Part shown: positions 31,228 through 50,242 of the stretch, one piece after another | How positions within the stretch are numbered: the first letter of the stretch is position 1 | How the letters are laid out: every line of letters starts with the position of its first letter | Program-made: the position numbers and the translations under genes | The notes under the pieces: generated by a model | Databases searched by the model: none | What the model was told of the DNA's origin: nothing | What the model saw: the letters and a program-made list of their open reading frames with translations, nothing else | Origin: Marinomonas communis | Lineage (GTDB): Bacteria > Pseudomonadota > Gammaproteobacteria > Pseudomonadales > Marinomonadaceae | Assembly (NCBI RefSeq): GCF_004363305.1 | Contig: NZ_SNZA01000002.1 | Span: 186,001-250,000, forward strand | DNA length: 64,000 nucleotides | Direction of reading: 5' to 3'

Positions 31228-32142
31228 TTAGGCGCTCTCGCGCGTCATGATACGTAATGCTACACCCGCAGCCGCCGTACGGTTTTCAACGCCAAGTTTG
31301 GGAAAGATTTGTTCCAAATGCTTGTTAACGGTACGGGGGCTCATTTCTAAGATTTCTGCAATCTCGCGGTTGGTCTTGCCGTTCGCTATCCAGTGTAAAA
31401 CGTGGGATTCACGTTCGGTCAAACCCAACTCGACTTTGAGTAACTCCGGCCCAAGCGGACGGTCCCCGTCCTCCAGTTTCACCAACGCTTCCGACTGTTC
31501 GGTGTATCCCAGAAACTTCAAGGTAAGTGGATAGTCGAGCTCTTGAAGTGGCAGACGATTCCCTTCTTCAGGTCGATGACTTAACCAGCTCCGTACCTGA
31601 GGTGCTAGATGCTCAACCTGCCAAGCGGACGTTAAGCGAGCCTTGGCCAATAGGGCATGCGCTTGTGGCGTGGCCCAAGCAACGTCGCCTTGCCCATTAA
31701 ACGTCATCAAGAATTGCCCCATGCTATCAAGAGCTGACTGAGCGTTATTACTCAAGCGGGCATTGTTTAAATGCACTCGCATGCGCGCGATTAACTCATT
31801 CGGTTGAATAGGCTTGGTCAAATAATCCACCCCACCCGCTTCAAGACCGCGAACGATATCATTGGTATCAGACAAGCCCGTCATAAAGATGACAGGAATA
31901 CTCGACAAGTTGGGATCCGCCTTGAGCGCATGACACGTCTCGAAACCATCCATATTTGGCATTACCGCATCGAGCAAAATGATGTCCGGTCGAATTCGCT
32001 TCGCTATGGTTAACGCCTGTCGGCCTTCTAAAGCGACTAAAACATCCATGTTGGCTTGCTCCAAAGTGTCATGGATCAGACTCAGCGCATCAGGAGAGTC
32101 GTCGACTACCAACACAATGTCATTCTTAGGGTTCGCCTTCAT
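31228..32142 (-). CDS. Response regulator with receiver and LuxR-type DNA-binding domain
   Basis: A roughly 304-residue two-component response regulator. The receiver domain occupies about residues 8-125 with phospho-acceptor D58 in ILLDAVMPNMDG, and an acidic pocket at VLVVDDSPD. A middle region of about 100 residues (PAS-like in appearance, uncertain) follows. The C-terminal LuxR HTH spans about 235-300 (LTERESHVLHWIANGKTNREIAEILEMSPRTVNKHLEQIFPKL in part). The ATG at 32142 with GGAA upstream is chosen. A GTG at 32157 that immediately follows the sensor-kinase stop is an alternative. It lies directly downstream of the NCS1-sensor kinase, so it is almost certainly its partner and DNA-binding output. 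Confidence 0.88.
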   Translation of the reverse strand: MKANPKNDIVLVVDDSPDALSLIHDTLEQANMDVLVALEGRQALTIAKRIRPDIILLDAVMPNMDGFETCHALKADPNLSSIPVIFMTGLSDTNDIVRGLEAGGVDYLTKPIQPNELIARMRVHLNNARLSNNAQSALDSMGQFLMTFNGQGDVAWATPQAHALLAKARLTSAWQVEHLAPQVRSWLSHRPEEGNRLPLQELDYPLTLKFLGYTEQSEALVKLEDGDRPLGPELLKVELGLTERESHVLHWIANGKTNREIAEILEMSPRTVNKHLEQIFPKLGVENRTAAAGVALRIMTRESA

Positions 32143-32158
32143 TTTCAAAAGTTCCACA

Positions 32159-35100
32159 TCACACGGTGTGCTGTTTTAAGTAAGTTGCAATGCCATCAAA
32201 TTGGAAGCTTTTATAGAGCGCTTCCAACTGTGCTAAATGTTGTGGATCAACAATCCCCTTGTCAGGAAGCTGATCCAAAACGCCACGTACTCCCTTTTTA
32301 TACCCCATTTCCGCAAACGCCGTTAGTTCCCTGATCACTTCATGATCGGGTATGGGGACAGGTAACTCATCCGCCGCCGCGCGTTTCGGAGTTTGTTTAG
32401 ACATGTCCTCTAAAGCCGACAGCGAGACAGAGTCTTCTGCTGAAACGGTTTCTTGATACACCCATTCGATCTTCAGCCACTGTTGAATCGCATCCAATAA
32501 AGCGGTGTTTTTAATGGGCTTGACCAAATATTGATTAAACGCATTTTGCTCATCGGGGCGCCTTTGGTTCTCCTGCGCATCCGCTGACAGCATGACAATC
32601 GGCACAGCATAACCTTGCTCACGCAAGACTTTAGCAAGACTTAAGCCGTTCATGCCCGGCATCGAGACATCCAGTACAAACAAGTCAGGCGAGCACGAAT
32701 CCAACTCATCCAGACACAGCTTTGCATCGGCCGCTTCAACAACGTTAAAGCCTATGGGGGTTAAAATATCCGCGAGCAGACCACGCACCACGGGATCATC
32801 GTCGACCACCATAATAGTTCTTTGATAACCACGGTAACTGACTATTTTCTTGGACATTGGTGTTGCTTCTTGTCCTTGTGACACCCATGGCAACATCAAA
32901 CTTACTTTGAATTCACTGCCTTCTCCGACCACCGACTTGGCTTGCAGGTCGCCCCCCATGATTTCAGTCAGTAGCTTAACAATGGTCAACCCCAAGCCCG
33001 TCCCCGGAAGGTTAGCGGTGGCGACATCACGCACCCGCTCAAAAGGATCAAAGATTCGCTGTAAATGCTCCTGCTTGATCCCAAGCCCGGTATCACGAAT
33101 CACGAACTCCGCCACCTGATTACGATAATTCACTTCAAATACCACGTTACCTTTAGGCGTGTACTTCACCGCATTGGACAGCAAATTAATCAGAATTTGT
33201 CGCAAGCGCTTTTCATCTGTGACCACTTGGTTGGGCAACGGTGCTAGGATTTTTGCCTGAAAGCCAATACCTTTGCCCTGCGCTTGCATGGCAAACATAC
33301 TGTTTAATTGATCAATCAGCTTCGGTAAATCCACGGTGTTTCGGTATAAGTCAAAACGCCCCGCTTCAATCTTAGAAATATCCAGCAACCCTTCAATTAG
33401 ATCGGCTAAATACAAACCGCTACGATGAATAATGTCCAAGCCGTTTTGGTGCCCTGATGGGGTATTGTCTTTTTCTGAGAGTAATTGGGCATAGCCAATA
33501 ATCGACTGCAAAGGCGTGCGCAGTTCATGACTGATCCCGCTTAGATAACGGCTTTTGGCTTCATTTGCCTGCTCTGCTTGTTCTTTAGCACTCTGTAGTG
33601 CCAAATCGGTTTCTTTGTGTGCCTCTACTTCTTGGGTCAACTTACGAGTTTGGCGGTTCGATTCTTTTTGCGCCACCACGCGACTTTCATGGGCCAACAA
33701 AAACAACCACGACAGCACCCCGGATACAATCAACAAAGTGAAGAACAACGCATACATAGCTTGCTCCAGCAACGCGGCTTCGCTCTCTGTTTGCGGCGCC
33801 ATTTGCCGATAAATCAGCATCATCAACGCCGCGTTAATGATGTTGATCACCACCAGCATGGAGGCAAACCGTCCTAGCCGCGAGCTGATCGCGCGCACCA
33901 GTCGCTTTGGTAAAAACAGTTTCAGAAAGTAGTCACTTTGTTGAGAAATACTGGCCTGCGGCTTACAACTGTCCAAACAACGCACGTCGAGGGAACAACA
34001 AAGAGAACAAATCGGCTGTTGGTAAGCAGAACAGAAGCTCATGTCTTCGCTTTCAAACTCATTTTCACAGATACCGCACTTTAACGTGACTACAGAGTGT
34101 GCGTGAGGGTGAGAGATTGGATTGGCTTGCTTCGCTGTCGCAATCAGAGGAATTAACTCAGGGCTTTGTCGCGCAATGTAATACTTTCCTTTGGTAAGCA
34201 TCGCAATCAGCGGTACACAAATAAAGCAGGCTGCAATGGCAATAAAATGCGACAGACTTTTTGCCACCTCACCAAAGATGCCCAAATAACACAGCAATCC
34301 AAGCGTGGTGGCGATTAACATCGAGCCAGTACCTACTGGATTAATGTCGTACAAATGCGCACGTTTAAACTCCACATAGTTTGGACTTAACCCTAGCGGC
34401 TTATTGATCAATAAATCCGCCGACAAGCTCGACAACCAACTCACGGCACTGATGGCAAATACGCTTAAAATCGCACCTAACGCTTGGTAAATACCCAGCT
34501 CCATCAATAGGAGCGCAATGGTAACGTTAAAGATTAGCCAGACCACGCGACCGGGGTGAGAGTGTGTAAGACGAGAGAAGAAATTCGACCACGCGATGGA
34601 CCCTGCATAAGCATTGGTCAAGTTGATTTTCATCTGACAAATAAACACGAAGACAGCGGCTAAAATCAAAGCCGTCGTCGGAGAAGTCGTTAAGAACAGA
34701 AAGATTCGTTGATACAGATAAGTTGGATCGGTTGCCTGTAGGACCGTGGCACCATCAGAAATAGCCAAGTAAGCCAAAAATGACCCCAGCAGCATTTTGA
34801 TCGCACCAATAAAGACCCACCCGGGCCCCGCCAATACCAGCCAAAACCACCAGCGATTGCGATTCTCTTTGGTCTTTTTCGGAAAGAAACGAAGGTAATC
34901 GACCTGTTCACCAATTTGCGCCATCAATGCAAACAACACCGAGGCCGCCGCACCAAACAGCAGCCAATCAAACCCCGTGTCTTGAGGCAAATGGCCGGGG
35001 ACATACTCCGTCCAACCATAAAAATTTTGATATTCCTGCGTCACCACCACACCAATGGCCGCGACTTGTAAAACTAACCAAATCCATTGCGTGCCAGTTT

Positions 35101-35623
35101 GAAAGCGACTGATCGCTCTAATACCATGGGTCACAATGGGAATGACGAATAACGCTGATAAGGCATAGCCAATGGGTAAGGGAATCCCAAGCAAGACTTC
35201 CAATGCAGAGGCTAAAATGGCCGCTTCGATAGCAAAAAAGATGAAAGTGAAAGTGGCATAGATCAGCGAAGTAATCGTAGAGCCAAGATAGCCAAAGCCT
35301 GCCCCGCGTGTCAGCAGATCAATGTCTAAGCCATGTTTGGCTGAGTAATAAGCAATGGGAAAGCCAGTGATAAAGAAAACCGCAAGCACCGTCAAAATAG
35401 CAGCTACGGCATTGGTGAAGCCATAGGTAAGCGTGATAACCGCTGCCAACCCTTCTAACGCCAGAAATGCCGCCGCGCCTAGGGCGGTATGACCAACGCG
35501 GTCAATACTCATGGAATGACCTTGCTTAGCCGTATAGCGCAGCGCGTAATCTTCCATGGTTTGGTCAGCGACCCACTTGTTGTAGTGGCGCCTTACTTTG
35601 AAGATTTTCTGAGCAGCAGCCAT
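32159..35623 (-). CDS. NCS1-permease-type hybrid sensor histidine kinase
   Basis: A 1154-residue fusion. Residues 1-480 form a polytopic NCS1-like domain (about 12 hydrophobic segments, including LPIGYALSALFVIPIVTHGI). A Cys-rich segment (about 514-551) holds CGICENEF, FCSAYQQPICSLCC and RCLDSC, resembling a zinc or metal knuckle. Two more TM helices (about 578-642) and a coiled coil lead to a histidine kinase core: SHELRTPLQS near 699 (phospho-His), N-box NLLSNAVKYT near 812, DTGLGI near 844 and GTGLGL near 872. A receiver domain begins near 936, with LFVLDVSMPGMNG near 981. A C-terminal region (1055-1154) resembles no domain I know. It lies downstream of ureJ with its response regulator after it, so a role in sensing a ureide or urea is inferred. 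Confidence 0.88.
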   Translation of the reverse strand: MAAAQKIFKVRRHYNKWVADQTMEDYALRYTAKQGHSMSIDRVGHTALGAAAFLALEGLAAVITLTYGFTNAVAAILTVLAVFFITGFPIAYYSAKHGLDIDLLTRGAGFGYLGSTITSLIYATFTFIFFAIEAAILASALEVLLGIPLPIGYALSALFVIPIVTHGIRAISRFQTGTQWIWLVLQVAAIGVVVTQEYQNFYGWTEYVPGHLPQDTGFDWLLFGAAASVLFALMAQIGEQVDYLRFFPKKTKENRNRWWFWLVLAGPGWVFIGAIKMLLGSFLAYLAISDGATVLQATDPTYLYQRIFLFLTTSPTTALILAAVFVFICQMKINLTNAYAGSIAWSNFFSRLTHSHPGRVVWLIFNVTIALLLMELGIYQALGAILSVFAISAVSWLSSLSADLLINKPLGLSPNYVEFKRAHLYDINPVGTGSMLIATTLGLLCYLGIFGEVAKSLSHFIAIAACFICVPLIAMLTKGKYYIARQSPELIPLIATAKQANPISHPHAHSVVTLKCGICENEFESEDMSFCSAYQQPICSLCCSLDVRCLDSCKPQASISQQSDYFLKLFLPKRLVRAISSRLGRFASMLVVINIINAALMMLIYRQMAPQTESEAALLEQAMYALFFTLLIVSGVLSWLFLLAHESRVVAQKESNRQTRKLTQEVEAHKETDLALQSAKEQAEQANEAKSRYLSGISHELRTPLQSIIGYAQLLSEKDNTPSGHQNGLDIIHRSGLYLADLIEGLLDISKIEAGRFDLYRNTVDLPKLIDQLNSMFAMQAQGKGIGFQAKILAPLPNQVVTDEKRLRQILINLLSNAVKYTPKGNVVFEVNYRNQVAEFVIRDTGLGIKQEHLQRIFDPFERVRDVATANLPGTGLGLTIVKLLTEIMGGDLQAKSVVGEGSEFKVSLMLPWVSQGQEATPMSKKIVSYRGYQRTIMVVDDDPVVRGLLADILTPIGFNVVEAADAKLCLDELDSCSPDLFVLDVSMPGMNGLSLAKVLREQGYAVPIVMLSADAQENQRRPDEQNAFNQYLVKPIKNTALLDAIQQWLKIEWVYQETVSAEDSVSLSALEDMSKQTPKRAAADELPVPIPDHEVIRELTAFAEMGYKKGVRGVLDQLPDKGIVDPQHLAQLEALYKSFQFDGIATYLKQHTV

Positions 35624-35642: not shown

Positions 35643-35674
35643 AAACGCCAAGAACAGACAAGTTCTTGGCGTTT
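35643..35674 (-). terminator. Strong terminator after the ure operon
   Basis: AAACGCCAAGAAC (35643-35655) and its exact complement (35662-35674) form a 13-bp stem with a 6-nt loop. It is followed by TTTTACG on the minus strand and TTTATTTT on the plus strand. It lies between the ureJ stop and the sensor kinase ATG 19 nt later. Confidence 0.85.
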
Positions 35675-35720: not shown

Positions 35721-36305
35721 TTATGCGATTGCTAATACCATACCCAATACAGCAATTACAGAGCCGCTAATACGTGTCACAAGTGGCGTACCCAGACGAG
35801 CCATCAGTTGACCAAAGCCAACACCCACCAAATGAAGAGCAGTTGTCGCAACGGCAAAACCTAGAGCGTACTGAGCTGCTGCACCGTTCGCAGGCATCTC
35901 CATACCATGCGCCACACCGTGGAAAACCGCAAAGCCGCCAGCAATGGCTGCACAAGCTGCCACAGGTAGACGTTTCGCACCCAATACCAATGCACCTAAT
36001 ACCATTACTGATAACAAGATACCCTGCTCAACAAATGGCACTTCTAGACCAGCCATCGCAGCACCGCCACCTAATAGCATCATGGCAACAAATGCCATCG
36101 GCACAGCCCAAAGAGCGCGACCACCCATGCTAGCAGCCCAAAGACCTACCGCAACCATCGCCAACAAGTGGTCTAAACCGCCCATTGGGTGCAGGAAGCC
36201 AGACATAAAACTAGACGTGTGCTCGTGTCCTGTGTGCGCCATCGCGACTGTTGATCCGACTGTTAGCGCTGCGACCGTCGCAGCTTTACTCATTGATATA
36301 CGCAT
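35721..36305 (-). CDS. ureJ: UreJ/HupE-family nickel-associated membrane protein
   Basis: This 194-residue polytopic protein belongs to the HupE/UreJ family. After a signal-like start (MRISMSKAATVAALTVGSTV), it carries HTGHEHTSSFMSGFLHPMGGLDHLLAMVAVGLWA in part, where HPxGGLDHLLAM is the metal-contact signature. It also contains the later GFAVFHGVAHGMEMP. Members are predicted nickel permeases that serve urease or hydrogenase. The ATG is supported by TAGGAG 8 nt upstream. It is the last gene of the ure cluster, 41 bp after ureG, and a strong terminator follows. Confidence 0.9.
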   Translation of the reverse strand: MRISMSKAATVAALTVGSTVAMAHTGHEHTSSFMSGFLHPMGGLDHLLAMVAVGLWAASMGGRALWAVPMAFVAMMLLGGGAAMAGLEVPFVEQGILLSVMVLGALVLGAKRLPVAACAAIAGGFAVFHGVAHGMEMPANGAAAQYALGFAVATTALHLVGVGFGQLMARLGTPLVTRISGSVIAVLGMVLAIA

Positions 36306-36346: not shown

Positions 36347-36994
36347 TTATACCACAGCTTTTGCAGGTGGGATTTCTTTCGCTTCAAGCATGCCTTCTGT
36401 GACAATGAACTGAATGATGTCATCCAAGCCTTGTGCGGCTTTTAAATTCGAGAACACAAATGGGCGTTCTCCACGTTGCGCTTTGGCATCTTGATCCATG
36501 ACTTCCAGTGATGCGCCTACCAATGGAGCAAGGTCGATCTTGTTAATGATCAGCAAGTCTGACTTGGTAATGCCGGGGCCACCTTTGCGTGGAATCTTAT
36601 CTCCGGCAGACACGTCGATCACGTAGATGGTCAGATCAGATAATTCCGGACTAAACGTGGCACTCAAGTTATCGCCACCCGATTCTACAAACACCACGTC
36701 CAGCTCGCCGTGACGATCCAACAACTGATCAATCGCCGCCAAGTTCATCGACGCATCTTCACGAATCGCTGTATGAGGACAGCCACCGGTTTCCACACCA
36801 ATGATGCGATCGGCTTCTAACGCTTCATGACGCGTTAAAAACTTGGCATCCTCTTGGGTATAAATATCATTTGTTACCACAGCGATGTTGTAGTGTTCAC
36901 GCATCGCAGAACACAAAGAGCGCAATAATGCTGTCTTGCCCGAACCGACTGGGCCACCTACACCGACTCGTAGGGTTTGTTTTGGTTTACTCAT
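36347..36994 (-). CDS. ureG: Urease accessory GTPase UreG
   Basis: A 215-residue SIMIBI-class GTPase that, with UreF, UreD and UreE, drives carbamylation and nickel insertion in urease. The P-loop is [12 protein letters not shown] near residue 13. [14 protein letters not shown], the metal-binding [13 protein letters not shown] (Cys-Pro-His nickel/zinc site), [18 protein letters not shown] and INKIDLAP are the standard UreG elements. Length is typical. It lies 83 bp after ureF in the operon. Confidence 0.97.
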
Positions 36995-37077
36995 GTTTCG
37001 CTCCTATTGCGATATCACTTTGTCAGTTTCGAATTGATGTTAACCCGATAAATTGGCTATAGAGTTAGGGGAATCCT

Positions 37078-37755
37078 CTAAGAACGGAACAACCTCGAAT
37101 ATTGGGTTTCATGTAAACAACTGGCGATAGCTACCGCTGGTAGGCCCGCGCCAATATCGTCTTCGCCGATGGTTTTCGACAAGGCAATTGCTTCCGATAA
37201 AGTCGGTTGCAATTCCCCCAGTAATAACTGTGCTTGGGTTTGCCCTAGAGGCACGAGCTTGGTCGCCGCAGCGATTTGGTTCTCAAGCCAAGACCATGAA
37301 AAACCCAATGCTGCGCTATCAAACTCCACTTGCCAGTGCGTCGCGGCAATCGCAAACAGCACGACAAAGCTAATGTCTTCCAAGCGTACAAACGGTGTTT
37401 CGATCTCCAAACTACGTAACAAACGCGCCAAGGCTTCGCCCATAGCTGTGTCGTTCAAACGTAATTCTTTGGTCTCACGACACGCTAAGATCAAATCGTT
37501 CAGCTCAACAATACGCGCTTCATCTCGTGTAGCCCAAGCCGCCATGGCCAAACGCAATACAGGCAAATCCACACGTGCTAACGACTGCAATAGCTGAAGC
37601 TGCGTCCAATCCGCGACCTGCGCTTGCTTTGTCACCCAACCTTTGTCAATGGCGTACTCCATGCCTTGCGAAAAGGCATAGCCACCAACAGGCAAACTGA
37701 CACTACTAAGCTGCAATAAGCGCAGCAGTCCGTGATCAGTGGTGGTGATGACCAT
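37078..37755 (-). CDS. ureF: Urease accessory protein UreF
   Basis: A 225-residue helical urease chaperone that works with UreD and UreG in nickel loading. LQLSSVSLPVGGYAFSQGMEYAID near the N-terminus and the GEALARLLRSL and AIATHWQVEFDSAAL regions are family features. The ATG at 37755 is chosen because GGAG lies 9 nt upstream and the length is then normal. A longer frame from 37797 overlaps ureE as an out-of-frame shadow. The true start overlaps the end of ureE by 20 nt, over the His-tail codons. Confidence 0.93.
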   Translation of the reverse strand: MVITTTDHGLLRLLQLSSVSLPVGGYAFSQGMEYAIDKGWVTKQAQVADWTQLQLLQSLARVDLPVLRLAMAAWATRDEARIVELNDLILACRETKELRLNDTAMGEALARLLRSLEIETPFVRLEDISFVVLFAIAATHWQVEFDSAALGFSWSWLENQIAAATKLVPLGQTQAQLLLGELQPTLSEAIALSKTIGEDDIGAGLPAVAIASCLHETQYSRLFRS

Positions 37756-38179
37756 GGCTGTACGCTCCAGATTCTGGATTGAAAATGCCTTGCTCATGAG
37801 TGACGACCAATCCTAGCAAGTGCAGCATCTCTTCCAACACGTGATCTGGCTTAATTCGCAACCAACGCTCACCGACTTCCACTTTGGTGTGACGGTTGCC
37901 TAAGTGGTAACAAGCTTTAGCAAAGGTCGTCCAATCCTCGCAGCTGGCATGAGCGATGTCTTCGACCGCACCAACAATTTGAATGGTCTTGCCGCATTCA
38001 GAGCGCAAATATTCGCCCACTAACAAAGGCTTACCACGATCTAAAAACACACGAACCTCTTCACCGTTTTCGCCAACGAGTTTTAGGCGGCCGCGTTCGC
38101 GTTGTTCATGGGTCAAAATCACAGTGGTGTACACCTCATCGTGGCAATGTGTGCCGAGGCGAGTGTAAATATCTAACAT
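37736..38179 (-). CDS. ureE: Urease accessory protein UreE
   Basis: A 147-residue nickel metallochaperone. It has VILTHEQRERGRLKLVGENGEEVRVFLDRGKPLLVGEYL (the N-terminal peptide-binding domain start) and a C-terminal ferredoxin-like domain with CYHLGNRHTKVEVGERWLRI, where the conserved His contributes to Ni binding. The C-terminus ends in a short His-rich tail (SHGHHHH). It lies 31 bp after ureC and overlaps ureF. Confidence 0.96.
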   Translation of the reverse strand: MLDIYTRLGTHCHDEVYTTVILTHEQRERGRLKLVGENGEEVRVFLDRGKPLLVGEYLRSECGKTIQIVGAVEDIAHASCEDWTTFAKACYHLGNRHTKVEVGERWLRIKPDHVLEEMLHLLGLVVTHEQGIFNPESGAYSHGHHHH

Positions 38180-38209
38180 AGGGCTACCCCAATTCTTCGC
38201 GCTAAGCGA

Positions 38210-39916
38210 TTAAAACAAGTTGTACAGTTGCGCCAAAGGCAAGCTTTCCGCTGGCTCACAAGTCAGTAATTCACCGTCTGCACGCACTTCATAAGTCTGT
38301 GGGTCGACGGTGATATTCGGCATCCACGCATTATGAATCATGTCTGTTTTACGGATGTTGCGGGTGTTCTTACACGCCACCAAAGTACGATCTAAGCCAA
38401 GCGATTCTTTAATGCCATTATTCAATGCTGCTTCTGAAACAAAGGTCACAGACGTGGCCGCAGGGGCTTTGCCGAACGAGCCAAACATAGGGCGGTAATG
38501 TACTGGTTGTGGCGTTGGGATCGACGCGTTCGGGTCGCCCATGGGTGCGCTGGCAATCATGCCGCCTTTAATAATCATCGACGGTTTCACTGCAAAGAAC
38601 GCAGGTTTCCATAACACCAAATCCGCCAATTTACCCGGCTCAATTGAGCCGACTTCGTGGCTGATACCGTGCGCGATCGCAGGGTTAATGGTGTATTTGG
38701 CAACATAACGTTTGGCTCGGAAGTTATCAGCCCCCACTTCTGTGTCTTCTGGCAACAAACCAAACTGTTGCTTCATCTTGTGCGCCGTTTGCCACGTACG
38801 AGTAACCACTTCCCCCACTCGGCCCATGGCTTGCGAGTCTGAGGAGATCATTGAGAAGGCACCGCGATCGTGGAAGATGTCTTCCGCCGCAATGGTTTCT
38901 TTACGAATACGCGAGTCTGCAAAGGCCACGTCCTCAGGGATGTTGCTGTCTAGGTGGTGACACACCATCAACATATCCAAATGCTCATCCACGGTGTTGT
39001 GCGTGTACGGACGTGTTGGATTGGTGGAAGACGGTAAAACGTTCGCTAAGCCTGCCGCACGAATGATGTCCGGTGCGTGACCGCCCCCTGCACCTTCCGT
39101 ATGGTAGGTGTGAATCACACGGTCTTTGAAGGCATCAATGGTACTGTCGACAAAGCCTGACTCATTCAAAGTATCCGTATGGATCGCCACTTGTACGTCG
39201 TACTTTTCGGCAACCGATAAACAGCAATCAATCGAGGCCGGTGTCGTACCCCAGTCTTCGTGCAGCTTTAGACCACAAGCGCCCGCTTCTAATTGCTCTT
39301 CCAAAGCATCAGGCAAACTCGCGTTCCCTTTGCCCAAGAAACCTAAGTTCATCGGCATGCTATCAGTGGCTTGTAACATCTTACCTAAGTACCAAGGACC
39401 AGACGTACAGGTCGTAGCATTGGTACCTGTCGCAGGGCCGGTACCGCCACCAATCATTGTCGTTACACCAGACGTCAGGGCTTCTTCGATTTGCTGTGGA
39501 CAAATAAAGTGAATGTGCGCATCAATGCCACCCGCCGTCAGGATCGAACCTTCACCGGCGATGACTTCAGTACCGGGTCCCACAACGATATCAACATTGT
39601 CTTGGACGTCTGGGTTACCCGCTTTACCGACTTTAAAGATACGGCCATTTTTGATACCGACATCACCTTTGACGATGCCCCAGTGATCCAACACAAGGGC
39701 ATTAGTGATCACTAAATCTACCGCCACATCATTGGTTAATTGGCTTTGTCCCATGCCGTCACGGATGACTTTACCGCCACCAAACTTCACTTCGTCGCCG
39801 TACGTGGTGAAATCTTTTTCTACCTGAATCCAAAGGTCGGTATCCCCTAAACGCACGCGATCGCCGGTCGTTGGACCAAACATCTGTGCGTAGCTTTGTC
39901 TGTCCATTATCGCCAT
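38210..39916 (-). CDS. ureC: Urease alpha subunit
   Basis: This 568-residue catalytic subunit keeps the whole nickel active site. Ligands are H134 and H136 (IDAHIHF), the carbamylated K217 with H219 (GLKLHED), H246 (AIHTDT), H272 (TYHTEG) and D360 (ISSDSQ). Flap residues C319 and H320 (VCHHLD) are also intact. It hydrolyses urea to ammonia and carbamate. The ATG overlaps the ureB stop by 1 nt (TAATG), so subunit translation is coupled. An internal Met4 is an alternative start. It is preceded by ureD, ureA and ureB and followed by ureEFG. Confidence 0.98.
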
Positions 39917-40236
39917 TATTCTGCTCCCTCTGCCAAGCTGCCCATCACTTCACCACGAAAGCCATAAATCGTTTTCGTACCTGCGTATTCGACTAATTCC
40001 ACTTCACGCCCTTGGCCCGGTTCAAAACGCACCGCGGTTCCTGAAGCAATGTTCAAGCGGTAACCTTTGGCTTGGTCGCGATCAAATACCAGAGCAGGGT
40101 TCACTTCATAAAAATGGTAATGGGAGCCAATTTGTACTGGGCGATCGCCGGTATTTTCAACACGTAATGTCAGTGTCTTACGACCTTCGTTTAGCTCGAT
40201 CACTCCATCAGCGACCTGAATTTCACCTGGAATCAT
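39916..40236 (-). CDS. ureB: Urease beta subunit
   Basis: A 106-residue structural subunit of bacterial (three-subunit) urease. [46 protein letters not shown] covers the conserved N-terminal half ([11 protein letters not shown]), and [16 protein letters not shown] the C-terminal half. It lies 14 bp after ureA and overlaps ureC by 1 nt. Confidence 0.97.
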
Positions 40237-40250
40237 GTTGCCTCCGTGAG

Positions 40251-40553
40251 TTAGTTAATCGGGTTATGCACAGTGACCAATTTCGTGCCGTCTGGGAACG
40301 TCGCTTCCACCTGTACTTCGTGGATCAAATCCGCGACGCCATCCATCACTTGTTCCGCACTCAATAAGGTCTTACCAAATGCCATCAGCTCGGCCACGGT
40401 TTTACCATCTCGTGCACCTTCAATAATTTCCATGGTGATGTAGGCCATGGCTTCGGGGTAGTTCAACTTCAGGCCACGATTTAAACGTCGTTCAGCCAAC
40501 AAGGCTGCTGTGAACACCAGCAGCTTGTCCTTTTCTCTTGGTAGTAATTCCAT
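40251..40553 (-). CDS. ureA: Urease gamma subunit
   Basis: A 100-residue small subunit with [49 protein letters not shown] and [21 protein letters not shown], the standard UreA signatures. It lies 58 bp after the ureD stop and is followed closely by ureB. Confidence 0.97.
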
Positions 40554-40611
40554 CGTTCAACCCTTTATTCGTTATCATTTTGCTTCGCGCATGGCGGTAG
40601 CAGCCTTTGGT

Positions 40612-41493
40612 TTAGGTTGCCCAAATTCTCGGCGCACACGCTGTTTTATCGATCAATACTGGGCGTAGCACTTCCCAGCATCGCGTAAACAATCGCTTCA
40701 TTTTTTCGCTGTCATGACTCAAGCTACGCAGCACAATAAACTCATCCACTTGGGTCACGCCGGACAAGCCATCGTTGTCTTGGCAAAGACCTCTCAGGGT
40801 CTCCAGCACTCCCTCTTCCACGTTCAAAAATGGTCCAGCCAGCAATAAGCCGTTCACTGGGTTGCCTTGCAAACCCGCTTTGCCTGCCATCAAGCCACGA
40901 CTGTATTCATCGACCAATAAGCGCTCACGCAAGCGCAAACGCCCATCGACACGAATCTGAAAGCTTTGATCGGCTTGCCCAGTTCCAAAATCCAATTGGT
41001 TAGCCGGTAAACCAAAGCAAGTAATCTCCCAGCCAATGAAGCGCGCACTGCCATGCAGCTCAATCTGGTTACGTAGTCGTGTGTTGGCATCAGGGTAAAG
41101 AATGGTTTCTTGTGGCAGCCATTCCATGATGGCGTCTTTCGGCACATGCAAACGAGTCGTTTGACGTTGTAAGGTTCGATCTGGACGCGCTTTGTATACG
41201 CGCCCCGCACCAGGGGTAGTAATCAGCACATGGGTGTCCGGAGCTTGGTTGGATTCGATCACTAGCTCATCACCCGATACCAAACCGCCAGGGGGATGCA
41301 ATAAGTACACATGAGCCGTGTCTTTGCCTTCTGGATAAAAGGGCTTTTGCACATACAAAGGCCCCTTGTGGTCACAGGTTTTTAATACGGTGCCACGAGC
41401 ACTCTTAGTGAAACCAAGCGTTAAATACGCCTGCCACTGACTGGCAGGTGAAACGGTTTCTATTGAGGGCAACGCATCTTTTACAACACTCAT
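40612..41493 (-). CDS. ureD: Urease accessory protein UreD
   Basis: A 293-residue urease maturation scaffold, part of the UreD-UreF-UreG complex on apo-urease. Recognisable are SARGTVLKTCDHKGPLYVQKPFYPEG near residue 30, VYLLHPPGGLVSGDELVIES, THVLITTPGAGRVYKA and the central LHVPKDAIMEWLPQETILYPD stretch. It is the first ure gene, 26 bp after urtE, which suggests continuous transcription from the urt genes. Confidence 0.95.
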   Translation of the reverse strand: MSVVKDALPSIETVSPASQWQAYLTLGFTKSARGTVLKTCDHKGPLYVQKPFYPEGKDTAHVYLLHPPGGLVSGDELVIESNQAPDTHVLITTPGAGRVYKARPDRTLQRQTTRLHVPKDAIMEWLPQETILYPDANTRLRNQIELHGSARFIGWEITCFGLPANQLDFGTGQADQSFQIRVDGRLRLRERLLVDEYSRGLMAGKAGLQGNPVNGLLLAGPFLNVEEGVLETLRGLCQDNDGLSGVTQVDEFIVLRSLSHDSEKMKRLFTRCWEVLRPVLIDKTACAPRIWAT

Positions 41494-41519: not shown

Positions 41520-42209
41520 CTATACCGCGAGGTATTGCTTAATCAGATCGTCATTCAAGTTTTCCATCTTGTCAGCCGCGACGATACGACCCTTTTCCAT
41601 CAGACGAAACTCTTTGCCTACGCGGCGGGCGAACCCCAATTTCTGTTCGATTAAGATCACGGTGAGGCCTTCCTCCTCATTGAGCTTAAGAATCACGTCG
41701 CCAATCTGCTTCACAATGTTTGGTTGAATACCTTCATTTGGCTCATCCAAGATCAACACCTTTGGCTCAAGCACCAAAGCGCGACCAATCGCTAATTGTT
41801 GTTGCTGACCACCGGATAAATCACCGCCGCGGCGGTGCAACATTTCTTTGAGCACCGGAAACAATTCAAAAATCTTTTCCGGAATCTCTTTGCTTTTGCG
41901 AACTGGCAGACCGATACGTAAGTTTTCTTCGACCGTTAGCATGGGAAAGATATCGCGCCCTTGGGGTACATAGCCGATCCCTTCATAAGCTCGACGTTCA
42001 GCACTCAGCTTGTGCAGCGCTTGGTTATTCATCGTGATTTCACCGCTTTTAATCGGTAACAACCCCATGATGGCTTTCATTAACGTGGTTTTGCCCACAC
42101 CGTTGCGCCCCATGATGCAGGTGATTGAGCCCGGCTCGATGTCTAAGTCCAAATCCCAGAGTATTTGCGTGCCACCGTAAAGTTGGCTCACTTTGTTCAT
42201 TGAAATCAT
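41520..42209 (-). CDS. urtE: Urea ABC transporter ATP-binding subunit UrtE
   Basis: A 229-residue ATPase of the branched-chain-amino-acid-type family, UrtE branch. Walker A is GRNGVGKTTLMKAIMG, the signature LSGGQQQQLAIGRALV and Walker B LILDEPNEG, followed by the conserved tail ELFRLMEKGRIVAADK-like stretch. Pairs with UrtD to energise urea import. GGAGG lies 8 nt before the ATG. The ORF follows the urtD stop by 2 bp, and ureD follows after 26 bp. Confidence 0.96.
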   Translation of the reverse strand: MISMNKVSQLYGGTQILWDLDLDIEPGSITCIMGRNGVGKTTLMKAIMGLLPIKSGEITMNNQALHKLSAERRAYEGIGYVPQGRDIFPMLTVEENLRIGLPVRKSKEIPEKIFELFPVLKEMLHRRGGDLSGGQQQQLAIGRALVLEPKVLILDEPNEGIQPNIVKQIGDVILKLNEEEGLTVILIEQKLGFARRVGKEFRLMEKGRIVAADKMENLNDDLIKQYLAV

Positions 42210-42211
42210 AC

Positions 42212-43069
42212 TTAGGCCTCCACCGCTTCTTCACCGAGGTAAACCTCGATCACATCTTTATTGCTTTGAATCTGATCCATAGTGCCTTCTGCGAGCACCG
42301 AGCCTTGGTGAAGCACCGTTACAGTGCGTGCAATGCTGCGCACAAACTCCATATCGTGCTCCACTACAATCACCGTTCGCTCTCCTGCTAACGATGTCAG
42401 CAGCTCTGCAGTCCGCTCAGTCTCTTGTGCGGTCATCCCAGCAACCGGTTCGTCGATCAATAACAAACGCGGATCCGATACCAACAACATGCCAATTTCG
42501 AGCCATTGTTTCTGGCCATGTGACAAAGCACCCGCCTTCATAAAACGCTGTTGCTTCAAGCCAATGATGGCGAGCACTTCATCAATACGATCAATTTCAG
42601 AAGGGGATAAGTTGGCAAACAAGGTCGGCAGCACACGCTTATCGGTTTTCAAGGACAGCTCTAAGTTGTCAAACACGGTTTGTTCTTCAAACACGGTCGG
42701 CTTTTGGAATTTACGCCCAATGCCAAGTTGCGCAATGTCGGCCTCGTCTTTGGTCAGCAGGTTATGCGTCTGACCAAAATACACCGACCCTGCATCAGGT
42801 TTGGATTTACCTGTAATCACGTCCATCAGTGTGGTTTTGCCCGCGCCATTGGCACCAATTAAGCAACGCAACTCCCCATCGTTGACATACAGGTTCAGAT
42901 CATTAAGCGCTTTGAAGCCATCAAAACTGAGATTTAAGCCCTCTACGTACAGAATCATTTGATTCGATACGTCGATCTTAGCCGCTTGTTCCGGGGCTAA
43001 GAATGGCCAAACTTGATCTCGACGAAAGGTCTCTCGTAGCCCTTGGATCGAATTATCGAATGCACTCAT
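42212..43069 (-). CDS. urtD: Urea ABC transporter ATP-binding subunit UrtD
   Basis: This 285-residue ATPase starts with the UrtD-type leader MSAFDNSIQGLRETF and then has Walker A GANGAGKTTLMDVITG, a LSHGQKQWLEIGMLL signature and Walker B RLLLIDEPVAGM. The ATG at 43069 overlaps the urtC stop by 4 nt (ATGA) and follows a GAGGTGA site. A longer frame extends into urtC and is rejected. Confidence 0.95.
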   Translation of the reverse strand: MSAFDNSIQGLRETFRRDQVWPFLAPEQAAKIDVSNQMILYVEGLNLSFDGFKALNDLNLYVNDGELRCLIGANGAGKTTLMDVITGKSKPDAGSVYFGQTHNLLTKDEADIAQLGIGRKFQKPTVFEEQTVFDNLELSLKTDKRVLPTLFANLSPSEIDRIDEVLAIIGLKQQRFMKAGALSHGQKQWLEIGMLLVSDPRLLLIDEPVAGMTAQETERTAELLTSLAGERTVIVVEHDMEFVRSIARTVTVLHQGSVLAEGTMDQIQSNKDVIEVYLGEEAVEA

Positions 43070-44199
43070 GATGTCACCTCCTGAGATGAAGCGGGCTGAC
43101 GTTTCGATTTCAGCTGCCCGTAAAGGCCAATCAATCCTTTTGGTAAGAACAAGGTGACTAGGACAAATAAAGCCCCCAGTGCAAACAACCAACCATCCGG
43201 CATAATGGCGGTGAAACGGGTTTTCGCATAATTCACCAATAACGCTCCGATAATGGCGCCAATCAAGGTGCCACGGCCACCAACCGCTACCCAAATCACC
43301 ACTTCAATAGAATTGATAGGAGAGAATTCACCCGGGTTAATGATGCCAACCTGAGGTACGTACAAGGCCCCTGCCACACCCGCAATCACAGCTGAATAAA
43401 CAAACAGCCACACTTTATAGCGCTCAGTGCGATAGCCGATAAAACGGGTACGTGCTTCGGCATCGCGCACCGCCAAAGTAACCTTACCTAAGCGTGACGA
43501 CAGGATACGTTGGCTCAGCATCAACACGACTGCCAATAAGACCGCGGTAATGATAAACAGCGACACTCGCGTGCTGTCGGACTGCAAATCAAAGCCTAGG
43601 ATCTCTTTAAAGTCGGTCAGACCGTTGTTACCGCCGAAGCCCATTTCGTTACGAAAGAAGGCCAGCAACAGAGCATAAGTCAACGCTTGCGTCATGATCG
43701 ATAGGTACACCCCCGTCACACGAGAACGGAACGCCAACCACCCAAAGACAAAGGCTAATAACCCCGGAACCAGTACTGCCATGATCATGGCAAACCAAAA
43801 TTGATCCATACCATGCCAAAACCAAGGCAACTCCTGCCAATCTAGAAACACCATAAAATCAGGCAGAATTGGATGCCCATACACACCACGATCACCGATC
43901 TGACGCATGAGGTACATGCCCATGGCATAGCCGCCCAGCGCAAAGAATGCGCCGTGGCCTAAGCTCAAAATACCGCAGTAACCCCAGATAATATCCACCG
44001 CCAGTGCTAGCATGGCGTAGCACAAATATTTGCCTAACAAGGTAATACTGTAAGTACTCACATACAGCGCAGAGTCTTGCGGTAATAACAAGTTAGCGGC
44101 TGAAGCCAAAACCGTGACCGCTAAAAGAAGGATGACAAACGGCAGCGTGTATTTGCCTGATGAGCGACCTTCGGAAAACCAGTTGATCAGCTTGCTCAT
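43066..44199 (-). CDS. urtC: Urea ABC transporter permease subunit UrtC
   Basis: This 377-residue permease (LivM-type) has about ten hydrophobic segments. Signature text is LAVDIIWGYCGILSLGHGAFFALGGYAMGMYLMRQ, and EVVIWVAVGGRGTLIGAIIGALLVNYAKTRF. It pairs with UrtB as the transmembrane channel for urea. The ATG overlaps the urtB stop by 4 nt. A GGTGACATC site then launches urtD. Confidence 0.95.
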   Translation of the reverse strand: MSKLINWFSEGRSSGKYTLPFVILLLAVTVLASAANLLLPQDSALYVSTYSITLLGKYLCYAMLALAVDIIWGYCGILSLGHGAFFALGGYAMGMYLMRQIGDRGVYGHPILPDFMVFLDWQELPWFWHGMDQFWFAMIMAVLVPGLLAFVFGWLAFRSRVTGVYLSIMTQALTYALLLAFFRNEMGFGGNNGLTDFKEILGFDLQSDSTRVSLFIITAVLLAVVLMLSQRILSSRLGKVTLAVRDAEARTRFIGYRTERYKVWLFVYSAVIAGVAGALYVPQVGIINPGEFSPINSIEVVIWVAVGGRGTLIGAIIGALLVNYAKTRFTAIMPDGWLFALGALFVLVTLFLPKGLIGLYGQLKSKRQPASSQEVTS

Positions 44200-45785
44200 T
44201 CTGCTGCTCTCCCTTTTTGTGGGAACAATCCTTTAGGACGTTTCTGAATAAATAGGATGATGAAGACCAACACCAAGATCGCAGCCAACACCGCGCCCGT
44301 GGTTGGCTCTAGGAATTTGTTTGCGATACCTAAGGTAAACGCAGCGACTAACGTACCCAGTAAGTTACCCACGCCACCGAAGACCACCACCATGAACGAG
44401 TCAATGATGTACGCTTGGCCAAGGTTTGGCCCAACGTTGGTTAATTGAGACAAAGCCACCCCAGCGATACCCGCAATGCCTGAACCCAAACCAAAGGTCA
44501 TCGCATCGACCCACTCGGTTTTAACCCCCATGGCTTTGGCCATACTGCGGTTTTGCGACACAGCGCGTACGTTTAGACCTAATGAACTTTTCTTCAAAAT
44601 GAACACCAGTGCCAAGAACACCAGCAAAGCAAACGCTAAGATATATAAACGGTTCAACGTCAAAGACAGCACTGGGTTAATTTCCCAAGAACCACTCATC
44701 CAGCTCGGTGTTGACACTTGACGGTTAAGCGGAGAGAAAATCGTACGCACCAGCTGTTGTAAAATCAGGCTGATACCAAAAGTCGCTAACAAGGTTTCCA
44801 ATGGACGACCATGCAGTCGACAAATGACTAGACGCTCAATCAATACGCCCATCAGACCAGAGACAAGGAACGCAGCAGGAATCGCTACCCAAATGGAGTA
44901 GTCGATATAGTTCGGCATGATCAGCTGCACAACATAAGTGGTGTAAGCACCCAACATGATCATTTCACCGTGCGCCATGTTGATCACACCCATCACACCA
45001 AAGGTGATCGCCAAACCAATCGATGCCAACAGTAAGACTGAGCCAAGGCTCAAACCAAAGAACAGCTGATCCACCAACGCGTAACGTTCTACCTGTCGGT
45101 TAATGTTCACAAGCGCCTTGTCTGCCGCCGCAGCCACCACTTCATTGCTATCTCGGGACAGTTTTAATAAGACGTTGCGTACATCGTTTTCTAAACTGCC
45201 TCCTAAAAACTCAATCGCCGTCACACGAGTAATTTGGCTATTGCTTTTATCCGTTGCCGTGTAAATCGATAATGCAGTTTGCATCATCTGCTTCACATCG
45301 CTGTTCGACTCTTTGGGGAATAAGGTTTCTAGCGTTGCAAAAGTGTCCTCATCAATGTCTGACAACAGCTCACGCACCGCCCCTTCGCGCACATCAGCAT
45401 TGTTTGAGGTTAACTGGATACGCGCGATCACACCACGCAACAAGCCACGCAACTTATTGTTTACTTTGATTTTCTTGACGTCTTTACTGGAAAGACCCAA
45501 CAGCTGCTCTTGGCTAAATGGGTCGATATAGACCTCTTTACCTTGCACATCGGTTTCCACCACAATGGTTTTGCTGTCTTTAACAAAATGCAGATCACCC
45601 GCGAGCCAAGCTCGAAATACTGGCAACAGGGATTCGTCCCCTTGCGCTTCGAGTTGCTCAACCATATCGGGTAATTTGGAAAGCTTGGTTGTTGTTAATT
45701 GTTCAAGTAGAACCTCAGTTGTCGCCGCATGTACTGGCATCCAACTGGCAAACATTAACAAACAAAATGAGATGAGATATTTCAC
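44196..45785 (-). CDS. urtB: Urea ABC transporter permease subunit UrtB
   Basis: A 529-residue LivH-type permease with a long N-terminal extension. A signal peptide (MKYLISFCLLMFASWMPVHA) and a soluble helical/HEAT-like region of about 200 residues precede the membrane domain, as is usual in proteobacterial UrtB. The permease half holds FGLSLGSVLLLASIGLAITFGVMGVINMAHGEMIMLGAYTTY and SRRSLGLNVRAVSQ-like text (here SLGLNVRAVSQNRSMAKAMG), then GGVGNLLGTLVAA. It uses a GTG start with GGAGTATTTC upstream. It is separated from urtA by a terminator-like hairpin. Confidence 0.94.
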   Translation of the reverse strand: MKYLISFCLLMFASWMPVHAATTEVLLEQLTTTKLSKLPDMVEQLEAQGDESLLPVFRAWLAGDLHFVKDSKTIVVETDVQGKEVYIDPFSQEQLLGLSSKDVKKIKVNNKLRGLLRGVIARIQLTSNNADVREGAVRELLSDIDEDTFATLETLFPKESNSDVKQMMQTALSIYTATDKSNSQITRVTAIEFLGGSLENDVRNVLLKLSRDSNEVVAAAADKALVNINRQVERYALVDQLFFGLSLGSVLLLASIGLAITFGVMGVINMAHGEMIMLGAYTTYVVQLIMPNYIDYSIWVAIPAAFLVSGLMGVLIERLVICRLHGRPLETLLATFGISLILQQLVRTIFSPLNRQVSTPSWMSGSWEINPVLSLTLNRLYILAFALLVFLALVFILKKSSLGLNVRAVSQNRSMAKAMGVKTEWVDAMTFGLGSGIAGIAGVALSQLTNVGPNLGQAYIIDSFMVVVFGGVGNLLGTLVAAFTLGIANKFLEPTTGAVLAAILVLVFIILFIQKRPKGLFPQKGRAAE

Positions 45786-45875: not shown

Positions 45876-47162
45876 TTAGTAGTTCTGACCTGAACACGTT
45901 TTCGTTTCCGTGTTGTAGTTGCCACACTTCACTGGATCCGTCCAATCGGCAATCAGGTCTTTAGAACCTGGTAGGAAGTCAGACCACGCGTCGCCTGGTA
46001 CAACGCCTTCTGTTTCCCATACAGTCTCAAACTGACCGTCGTCTTGGATTTCACCAATCAGAACCGGCTTGCTCAAGTGGTGGTTTTTGTTCATCACAGC
46101 CACACCGCCTGTTAGGTTAGGTGTTTCTTGGCCGATCATTGCTTGCTCAACCGCATCCACGTCCGTCGTACCCGCTTCCGTTACCGCGTTAGCCCACATG
46201 TTGAAACCGATGTAAGTCGCTTCCATTGGGTCATTCGTTACACGATCTGGGTTCTTAGTGAAAGCTTTCCATTGAGTGATGAACTCTTCGTTTTCTTCTG
46301 TCTCAACGCTCTGGAAGTAGTTCCAAGCCGCTAAGTGACCCACTAGAGGAGCGGTATCTAGACCAGAAAGCTCTTCTTCACCTACAGAGAATGCAACAAC
46401 TGGGATATCTTCAGAAGAGATACCTTGGTTACCTAGCTCTTTGTAGAAAGGCACGTTTGCGTCACCGTTGATGGTAGAAACAACGGCTGTTTTCTTACCT
46501 TCAGAACCGAATTTAGCGATATCCGCTACGATCGACTGCCAATCAGAATGACCAAAAGGCGTGTAGTTGATCATGATGTCTTCTTCTGCGACACCCATGT
46601 CTTTTAGGTAAGCTTCAAGAATTTTGTTAGTGGTACGTGGGTAAACGTAGTCCGTACCCGCTAGCACCCAACGCTCAACACCGAGCTCATCCTTTAGGTA
46701 GTTAACCGCTGGAATCGCTTGTTGGTTCGGCGCAGCGCCTGTGTAGAACACGTTTTTAGACGACTCTTCACCTTCGTACTGAACTGGGTAGAACATCAAA
46801 CCGTTAAGTTCTTCGATAACCGGTAGAACCGATTTACGAGAAACCGATGTCCAGCAACCGAAAATCACGTCTACGTCTTTTTCAGTAATCAACTCACGCG
46901 CTTTCTCTGCAAACAAAGGCCAGTTTGACGCAGGGTCAACGACCACAGCTTCTAGTTTTTTACCTAGCAAACCACCTTTCTTGTTTTGCTCTTCTACCAT
47001 CATTAGAACAGTGTCTTTTAATGTGGTTTCAGAAATCGCCATCGTGCCAGACAAAGAGTGCAGCACACCTACTTTGATCGTGTCATCAGCAGCCATCGAA
47101 GGAAAAGCGATAAGCGTTGCACCGGAGAGCGCAATCGCAGAAGCAAGCGTTTTAAGTTTCAT
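45876..47162 (-). CDS. urtA: Urea ABC transporter substrate-binding protein UrtA
   Basis: A 428-residue periplasmic urea-binding protein of the Leu/Ile/Val-binding class. The N-terminal signal peptide is MKLKTLASAIALSGATLIAF with processing after PSMA. Then follow KVGVLHSLSGTMAISETTLKD, VDVIFGCWTSVSRKSVLPVIEE, NGLMFYPVQYEGEESSKNVFYTGAAPNQQ and PFGHSDWQSIVADI, which are UrtA-specific. Nitrogen control is normal for urtA, but no sigma-54 site could be confirmed upstream. A 16-bp palindrome lies about 139-154 bp upstream. The first gene of the urtABCDE-ureDABCEFGJ block. Confidence 0.96.
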   Translation of the reverse strand: MKLKTLASAIALSGATLIAFPSMAADDTIKVGVLHSLSGTMAISETTLKDTVLMMVEEQNKKGGLLGKKLEAVVVDPASNWPLFAEKARELITEKDVDVIFGCWTSVSRKSVLPVIEELNGLMFYPVQYEGEESSKNVFYTGAAPNQQAIPAVNYLKDELGVERWVLAGTDYVYPRTTNKILEAYLKDMGVAEEDIMINYTPFGHSDWQSIVADIAKFGSEGKKTAVVSTINGDANVPFYKELGNQGISSEDIPVVAFSVGEEELSGLDTAPLVGHLAAWNYFQSVETEENEEFITQWKAFTKNPDRVTNDPMEATYIGFNMWANAVTEAGTTDVDAVEQAMIGQETPNLTGGVAVMNKNHHLSKPVLIGEIQDDGQFETVWETEGVVPGDAWSDFLPGSKDLIADWTDPVKCGNYNTETKTCSGQNY

Positions 47163-47300: not shown

Positions 47301-47316
47301 TACGTCATTTGACGTA
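47301..47316. promoter_or_regulatory. 16-bp palindrome upstream of urtA
   Basis: TACGTCA-TT-TGACGTA is a perfect 7+2+7 inverted repeat between the aldehyde dehydrogenase stop and the urtA start. It is 139 bp upstream of the urtA ATG. It is a good candidate operator, possibly for the LuxR-type regulator at 31228. No experimental support exists. Confidence 0.45.
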
Positions 47317-48775: not shown

Positions 48776-48793
48776 AAAACTATCCAGTCTCTA

Positions 48794-50080: not shown

Positions 50081-50137
50081 AATAGGCCTCGTTCATTTGT
50101 GATATTTAAATATTATTTTTTGGCACACTTTAAAAGC

Positions 50138-50204
50138 CTGATGCTTATTTCTTCTGGGGAGGAGGGCTAGTTGCGAAACCCAATAGAAAGATAACAAGCA
50201 TCAG
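50138..50204. repeat. Spaced 9-bp inverted repeat
   Basis: CTGATGCTT (50138-50146) and AAGCATCAG (50196-50204) are perfect complements separated by 49 nt in the gap between gbuA and the permease gene. It may be an operator dyad or a long-loop RNA structure. Confidence 0.35.
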
Positions 50205-50242
50205 ACAAACTCTAAATTATTGTTATGTTTAGAAAAATGACG

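Follow-up and report, generated by a model that had tools for sequence, protein, structure and literature searches.

A predicted urea-sensing two-component system built on an NCS1-type permease fused to a hybrid sensor histidine kinase in Marinomonas communis, and its amide-linked relatives

At the end of a urea transport and urease gene run in Marinomonas communis (assembly GCF_004363305.1, contig NZ_SNZA01000002.1, positions 186,001 to 250,000 of the forward strand; these 64,000 nucleotides are referred to here as the window), a single gene encodes an NCS1-type permease domain fused to a hybrid sensor histidine kinase. The comparative data suggest that this protein and the adjacent LuxR-type response regulator form a transceptor-type two-component system, in which the kinase would sense urea and the regulator would activate the urt-ure genes through a palindromic box, a reading to which a probability of about 0.7 is given. 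In the mechanism proposed here, the NCS1-fold domain, which may have retained transport, would bind urea in its substrate pocket, the Na+ site being occupied by Lys332. The bound state would be relayed through a cytoplasmic cysteine-rich segment and a transmembrane hairpin to the kinase core, which together with its own receiver would signal to the regulator; both the ligand and the direction of this signal are what we infer. The regulator would bind TACGTCA-N2-TGACGTA before urtA, activating urt-ure and perhaps also the kinase and regulator genes that close the run. In some relatives formamide or another short-chain amide would be the ligand, and fmd or ami genes would be controlled likewise.

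The fusion of an NCS1-type permease to a hybrid sensor kinase, with a Cys-rich part, transmembrane hairpin, receiver and LuxR-type regulator, had been described in an earlier note on this stretch and was fully borne out. All the features of a hybrid sensor histidine kinase are present, namely the HisKA histidine, the HATPase_c domain, the receiver aspartate and a partner regulator, and a response regulator gene lies no more than 500 bp from the kinase in 148 of 162 loci. Comparison of the permease domain with a profile of 32 NCS1 sequences gave an hhalign probability of 99.5 (E 3.9e-22), and its predicted fold is of the LeuT type, nearest to the solved NCS1 structures. A match to the Pfam family PF02133 was seen neither for the window protein, with E values allowed up to 10, nor in the family listings of 33 members; judged from these comparisons, the domain is a divergent NCS1-type branch rather than a standard NCS1 member. 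No SLC5 (SSS) transporter domain was recognised in the window protein and no PAS domain was detected there in the domain scan. The linker between transporter and kinase, where SLC5/STAC kinases have their STAC domain, is an eight-cysteine segment, for which the model shows short strands and a single short helix.

Relatives of the permease domain were aligned in 160 rows, after removal of rows below 200 bits and of incomplete frames. In the pocket region, E133, Q236, E239, K332, N334 and N337 are identical in all 160, and T126, a pocket position in the CodB-based alignment, is kept in 158. The counterpart of Mhp1 Gln121, traced through CodB, should be E133, a position occupied by Gln in 20 of the 32 NCS1 rows. 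The Na+ ligands described for CodB are Gly29, Phe32, Asn275, Thr278 and Thr279 (PMC9379551). This Na2 site, which is not known to be common to all NCS1 proteins, is not kept in the family, where K332 (160/160) and I333 (159/160) stand at CodB Thr278 and Thr279. A basic residue is also found at the K332 position in 4 of the 32 kinase-free NCS1 proteins, and the lysine may therefore predate the kinase fusion.

The linkage to urea and amide genes was examined in 398 Pseudomonadota genomes drawn evenly from the phylum (the phylum sample), in which the family, at a cut-off of more than 500 bits, occupies 57 places in 52 genomes. Up to 20 kb was fetched around 55 of these loci, the remaining two being the window and genome G107. 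Loci were typed by a fixed rule that used urea and amide reference proteins only, with identity and coverage limits and a reach of 10.5 kb; two kinase-free permeases, L133 and L209, are included in the locus-type counts. The fetched loci comprised 15 linked to urea genes, 37 to formamide or amide genes, one to both and two at contig ends. Since the window and the G107 locus (L127) were typed as urea, urt/ure or fmd/amidase/AmiS genes accompany the family at 55 of the 57 places, and the homologues are not consistently found beside unrelated loci. Class-level loci (n = 18) gave 5 urea, 5 amide, 7 with neither and 1 not scored, and plasmid loci (n = 11) gave 4, 5, 1 and 1, respectively. The best 80 of 84 relatives from named genomes, which come chiefly from Marinomonas and further Oceanospirillales and include some metagenome-assembled genomes of alpha- and betaproteobacteria, gave 51 urea, 5 amide and 1 with both. 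The earlier note had suggested a urea or ureide sensor; the urea part is upheld by the conserved neighbourhood, the shared palindrome and the co-occurrence described below, but the ureide part is not, because the predominance of amide over urea loci in the phylum sample makes small amides the common theme.

The amide loci contain an FmdA-type or nitrilase-type formamidase, FmdB, an aliphatic amidase, AmiS/UreI and a Urt-like ABC transporter, the binding protein of which is 36-45% identical to UrtA of the window. This transporter has been proposed by others as a formamide importer (PMC13209695). An Fmd-type binding protein (E<=1e-120) was found in 37 of the 398 genomes, and all 37 lie within the 52 that carry the kinase (Fisher p 2e-40, uncorrected for relatedness of the genomes). 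In the M. communis genome, none of the 79 other kinase or receiver matches lies within 10 kb of urt or ure genes.

On a tree of the permease domain, for which 116 rows were kept after near-identical rows had been dropped, the amide label required 10 changes; shuffled labels required 36.7 on average, none of 500 shuffles being as low, and the urea and amide rows taken alone required 6. The window's branch holds 35 rows, 23 urea, 12 unassigned and none amide, with a support of 99 in the SH-like approximate likelihood ratio test. Five phylum-sample genomes contain two copies; four of these (G509, G596, G575 and G728) have one urea-linked and one amide-linked copy, an arrangement that speaks for sensing of particular ligands rather than of nitrogen supply in general, and both copies of the fifth (G446) are amide-linked and differ in make-up.

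A general signal is nonetheless the alternative that survives best, if an unlikely one: the system would report nitrogen status (ammonium or glutamine), and the permease domain would be a relic with no sensing role. Nitrogen control of urea and amide genes is common, and loss of the Na+ site is what a relic might display. Against this, the six invariant pocket residues are not those expected of a relic, the two-copy genomes divide their copies between urea and amide while branches of the tree hold one association, and the single perfect box in the M. communis genome is unlike a broad regulon.

The box was derived from 430-bp regions that precede urtA, or the Fmd counterpart of urtA, at kinase loci, 68 of 92 being kept as non-redundant for the dyad count. 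The dyad TACG-N8-CGTA occurs in 51 of the 68, against about 0.07 expected from dinucleotide shuffles, and was recovered separately from urtA regions (22/28) and Fmd regions (29/40). The consensus is TACGTCA-N2-TGACGTA, and the corresponding matrix scores at least 14 in 79 of the 92 regions. Across the phylum sample the exact box is present in 10 of 398 genomes, 8 of which carry the kinase, with all 8 sites adjoining kinase or urtA; the reversed-pattern control occurs in one genome (Fisher p 1.9e-6 for the link between exact box and kinase).

Twelve genomes in which kinase and urtA are unlinked, and the control genomes without the kinase, were kept out of matrix construction. Twelve of the named loci lacking a urea or amide gene within reach were followed into their genomes; urtA was located elsewhere in all 12, and in 11, all but G768, a perfect box lies some 96-159 bp before it. 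In G107, where 100 kb separate urtA and the kinase, the box at urtA scores 13.9. Conversely, no urtA promoter from kinase-less gammaproteobacteria reached a score of 12 (0/68, being 22 + 19 + 27; best 5.4), four of the 72 kinase-less UrtA genomes having been omitted owing to contig ends (G208, G163 and G318) or a start off the contig (G055); one control, G321, has the bare TACG-N8-CGTA at this promoter. Among all loci with a kinase frame, a site scoring at least 12 and no more than 0.7 kb ahead of the kinase was found at 41/52 amide, 8/73 urea, 3/31 unassigned and 1/2 mixed loci; for many of the urea loci the fetched stretch did not include the urtA promoter. The DNA-binding segment of the regulator is closely similar between urea- and amide-linked groups (four amide rows aligned), and the adjacent LuxR-type regulator is the natural candidate for binding the predicted box.

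It is distinctly unlikely that the palindrome is instead the site of another regulator that travels with urt or fmd, with the kinase a passenger having other targets. Binding of the box by the adjacent regulator is a prediction, and in the class sample 10 of the 12 kinase-bearing genomes examined at the urtA promoter are without it there. The box nevertheless tracks the kinase and not urtA, as seen in the contrast between kinase-less and unlinked-kinase genomes, and the kinase-free permease-urease loci L209 and L133 are without it. Moreover, LuxR-type regulators bind inverted repeats, and CrbR is reported to require one (PMC5715377).

Several observations weigh against a urea-sensing system acting through the box. 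The promoters scored in the 92-region count are also those from which the matrix was made. No one-mismatch sites occur in the M. communis genome, and when up to three mismatches are allowed the pattern is found at 111 places, compared with 158 for the reversed control; because the relaxed pattern is no commoner than this control, only the perfect site stands out. Saccharospirillum (G768) has both kinase and urtA and no box. The two class-sample genomes with a box at the urtA promoter are G000 and G107; among the other ten, the kinase is amide-linked in G138, G249 and G070, the box adjoins the kinase instead of urtA in G048, G009 and G052, and no box was found in G038, G197, G032 and G128. Confidence in the favoured explanation was slightly lowered, and that in the alternatives slightly raised, by this extended promoter count, which added kinase-bearing genomes without a urtA box. 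In addition, no urea or amide gene is within reach at 23 of the 80 named loci, 12 of which were the ones followed into their genomes, nor in the fetched stretches of the deep members L131, L132 (G137) and L129 (G032). No alignment column cleanly divides urea-linked from amide-linked members, and transcription of the kinase gene may be partly set apart by the hairpin that separates it from ureJ.

The pocket also bears on the ligand. Cytosine is bound in CodB by Gln105, Trp108 and Phe204 (PMC9379551). At position 129, equivalent to Trp108, the family has Phe (145/160) or Leu (15/160) where 29 of 32 NCS1 proteins have Trp, and position 234 is V/M/I/L/A/S/T in 151 of 160 and F in 9, being aromatic in 27 of 32 NCS1 proteins. 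These altered aromatics would fit a small non-aromatic ligand. A nucleobase, hydantoin or ureide ligand, with the urea genes induced as a downstream pathway, would suit the NCS1 fold, CodB and Mhp1 carrying cytosine and hydantoins; it is rendered improbable by the altered aromatic sandwich and by partner genes that elsewhere are formamidase, amidase and AmiS. Neighbours other than urea and amide genes were judged from the 11 annotated plasmid loci, where xanthine dehydrogenase-like purine-type genes adjoin one kinase copy (L207).

The cysteine segment appears to form two sites, C516, C519, C539 and C542 making up the putative first and C531, C543, C549 and C553 the second; a search with its fold gave weak matches. 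All eight cysteines are retained in 158 of 160 relatives. The exceptions, L209 on an Acinetobacter plasmid and L133, are kinase-free permeases placed at the head and tail, respectively, of urease clusters, and both retain the first four and jointly lack the second four. Kinase-free NCS1 proteins of Paracoccus aminophilus (L214) and Streptomyces (L264) have a C-terminal CxxC...CxxC with the same PIC-x2-C. Because such four-cysteine forms occur on kinase-free permeases, the segment most likely arrived along with the permease, as a site for zinc rather than a nickel sensor linked to urease. The nickel or redox role that the earlier note had suggested thus found no support: urease requires nickel and the eight cysteines are near-invariant, yet the segment is most improbable as the true input gating urease expression, given the identical cysteines of amide-linked members, the four-cysteine forms on kinase-free permeases (that of L214 beside a hydantoinase-type gene) and the joint loss of one quartet, as expected of a structural second zinc site.

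Kinase-free members occur in urease clusters and at the head of a formamidase-amidase cluster (L124), which indicates that the permease itself goes with the substrate. At L124 the kinase and response regulator genes run one way and a kinase-free permease, formamidase, FmdB and amidase run the other, with a box between, so that the two forms, with and without a kinase, stand side by side. On the Acinetobacter lwoffii plasmid (L209:9950-17735) the Cys-tailed permease heading the urease cluster is annotated as hypothetical and is a candidate urea permease. Three variants of 887-899 residues (L178, L191 and L208) have a different kinase core and no receiver. They adjoin fmdA and amiS, and the stretches fetched around them yielded no box. 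As read from domain content, the same permease and Cys segment on another core is an instance of kinase exchange within the family.

The family resembles the SLC5/STAC transceptor kinases CbrA and CrbS, among which RpuS is reportedly also counted, in joining a transporter domain of the LeuT fold to a histidine kinase that has a partner regulator. It differs from them in that NCS1 replaces the SLC5 domain, the eight-cysteine segment and transmembrane hairpin occupy the linker position, no PAS domain was found, and the partner genes serve small amides. A transporter, of the Amt fold, is also said to sense a nitrogen compound, ammonium, on a sensor kinase of Kuenenia; transporter-based sensing is common to both. 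In CbrA, lysine K196 is described as occupying the Na2 site, with proton-driven transport (PMC13022988). The lysine of the window family lies at the TM8 (eighth transmembrane helix) position of CodB Thr278. By eye, the box is unlike the ACTU sequences listed for CrbR (PMC5715377). With respect to CodB and Mhp1, the family has Lys/Ile at Thr278/Thr279 and Phe/Leu at Trp108, and adds the C-terminal Cys segment and kinase.

These comparisons suggest a new variant within the transporter-kinase group, for which the comparative evidence of function is strong and the mechanism a precise proposal. They also suggest that CbrA is not alone in having a Na2-site lysine, an independently formed transporter-kinase fusion having one as well; giving up Na+ coupling may thus belong to the change from transporter to receptor. 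A broader proposition, judged slightly better than even, is that the family is a class of transceptor kinases on an NCS1 permease with a lysine-held cation site, acting as direct receptors for urea and formamide-type ligands; the ligand class would have switched about six times with fold, Cys linker and box largely kept, and the kinase-free members would be urea or amide permeases. If true, the family is a natural experiment in the ligand retuning of a transporter-receptor. It supplies a candidate receptor, partner regulator and predicted operator, making bacterial urea sensing directly testable.

No description of NCS1-kinase fusions, urea or formamide two-component sensors, formamidase regulation or the box, and no experiment on ligand binding, transport, phosphotransfer or DNA binding, was found among the literature matches listed. 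Sinorhizobium meliloti SMb20609/SMb20610 are presumably family members, judging by the pSymB gene order (the neighbouring dctA is SMb20611). At the S. meliloti locus (L184) urtA is nearby with a box before it. These two genes are reported to be up in phaR mutants and in the same module as UreA/UreB, and are termed functionally uncharacterised, the permease domain being unmentioned in the relevant part of that paper (PMC12542648). Among plasmid records, 532 contain a relative of the permease part, 342 of them from Klebsiella; in the two Klebsiella plasmids read (L206 and L211) it adjoins urtABCDE and a formamidase cluster, with the box in between. A 2026 preprint ties apparently the same kind of urt-formamidase cluster to urinary-tract lineages, and its main text makes no mention of a histidine kinase or of a two-component system (PMC13060141).

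The genes of the window locus form a single-strand run from urtA (47162) to the regulator (31228), in the order urtABCDE, ureDABCEFG, ureJ, kinase and regulator (Table 1).

Table 1. Features of the kinase gene and its locus (window coordinates)
Feature	Position	Strand	Remark
LuxR-type response regulator (REC + GerE), Asp63, presumed partner of the kinase	31228..32157	-	
NCS1-type permease / hybrid sensor histidine kinase, 1154 aa	32159..35623	-	
Receiver domain, residues 937-1047, Asp985	32483..32815	-	
HisKA + HATPase_c kinase core, residues 689-910, His699	32894..33559	-	
Transmembrane hairpin, residues ~582-648	33680..33880	-	runs into signalling helix
8-Cys zinc-finger-like segment, residues 505-560	33944..34111	-	zinc putative
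NCS1-fold permease domain, residues 26-486	34166..35548	-	alignment and predicted fold
Lys332 codon	34628..34630	-	aligned with CodB Thr278 (Na2 site)
Hairpin with 13-bp stem between ureJ and kinase gene	35643..35674	.	
HupE/UreJ family protein	35721..36305	-	
ureD-A-B-C-E-F-G, urease	36347..41493	-	names by gene order and matches to annotated relatives
urtBCDE	41520..45785	-	urtB by TIGR03409; urtC, urtD, urtE by gene order and matches to annotated relatives
urtA, urea ABC transporter binding protein	45876..47162	-	TIGR03407
Predicted regulator box TACGTCATTTGACGTA, 139 bp upstream of urtA	47301..47316	.	sole perfect copy in genome

The kinase reading frame is broken in the assemblies at L068, L077 and L086, for which sequencing error and decay are both possible. 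In the window, the urtB frame (44196-45785) has an N-terminal extension of about 235 residues ahead of the permease part. Upstream of urt (47342-51193, minus strand) lie a stand-alone CytX/NCS1-type permease (48794-50080), an aldehyde dehydrogenase and a protein named from sequence alone as ureohydrolase-like (50243-51193, minus strand); together these could be a urea-releasing pathway adjoining the urea operon. A second stand-alone NCS1 permease (PF02133, E 5e-85) is encoded at the window's other end, at about 2362-3696 on the minus strand.

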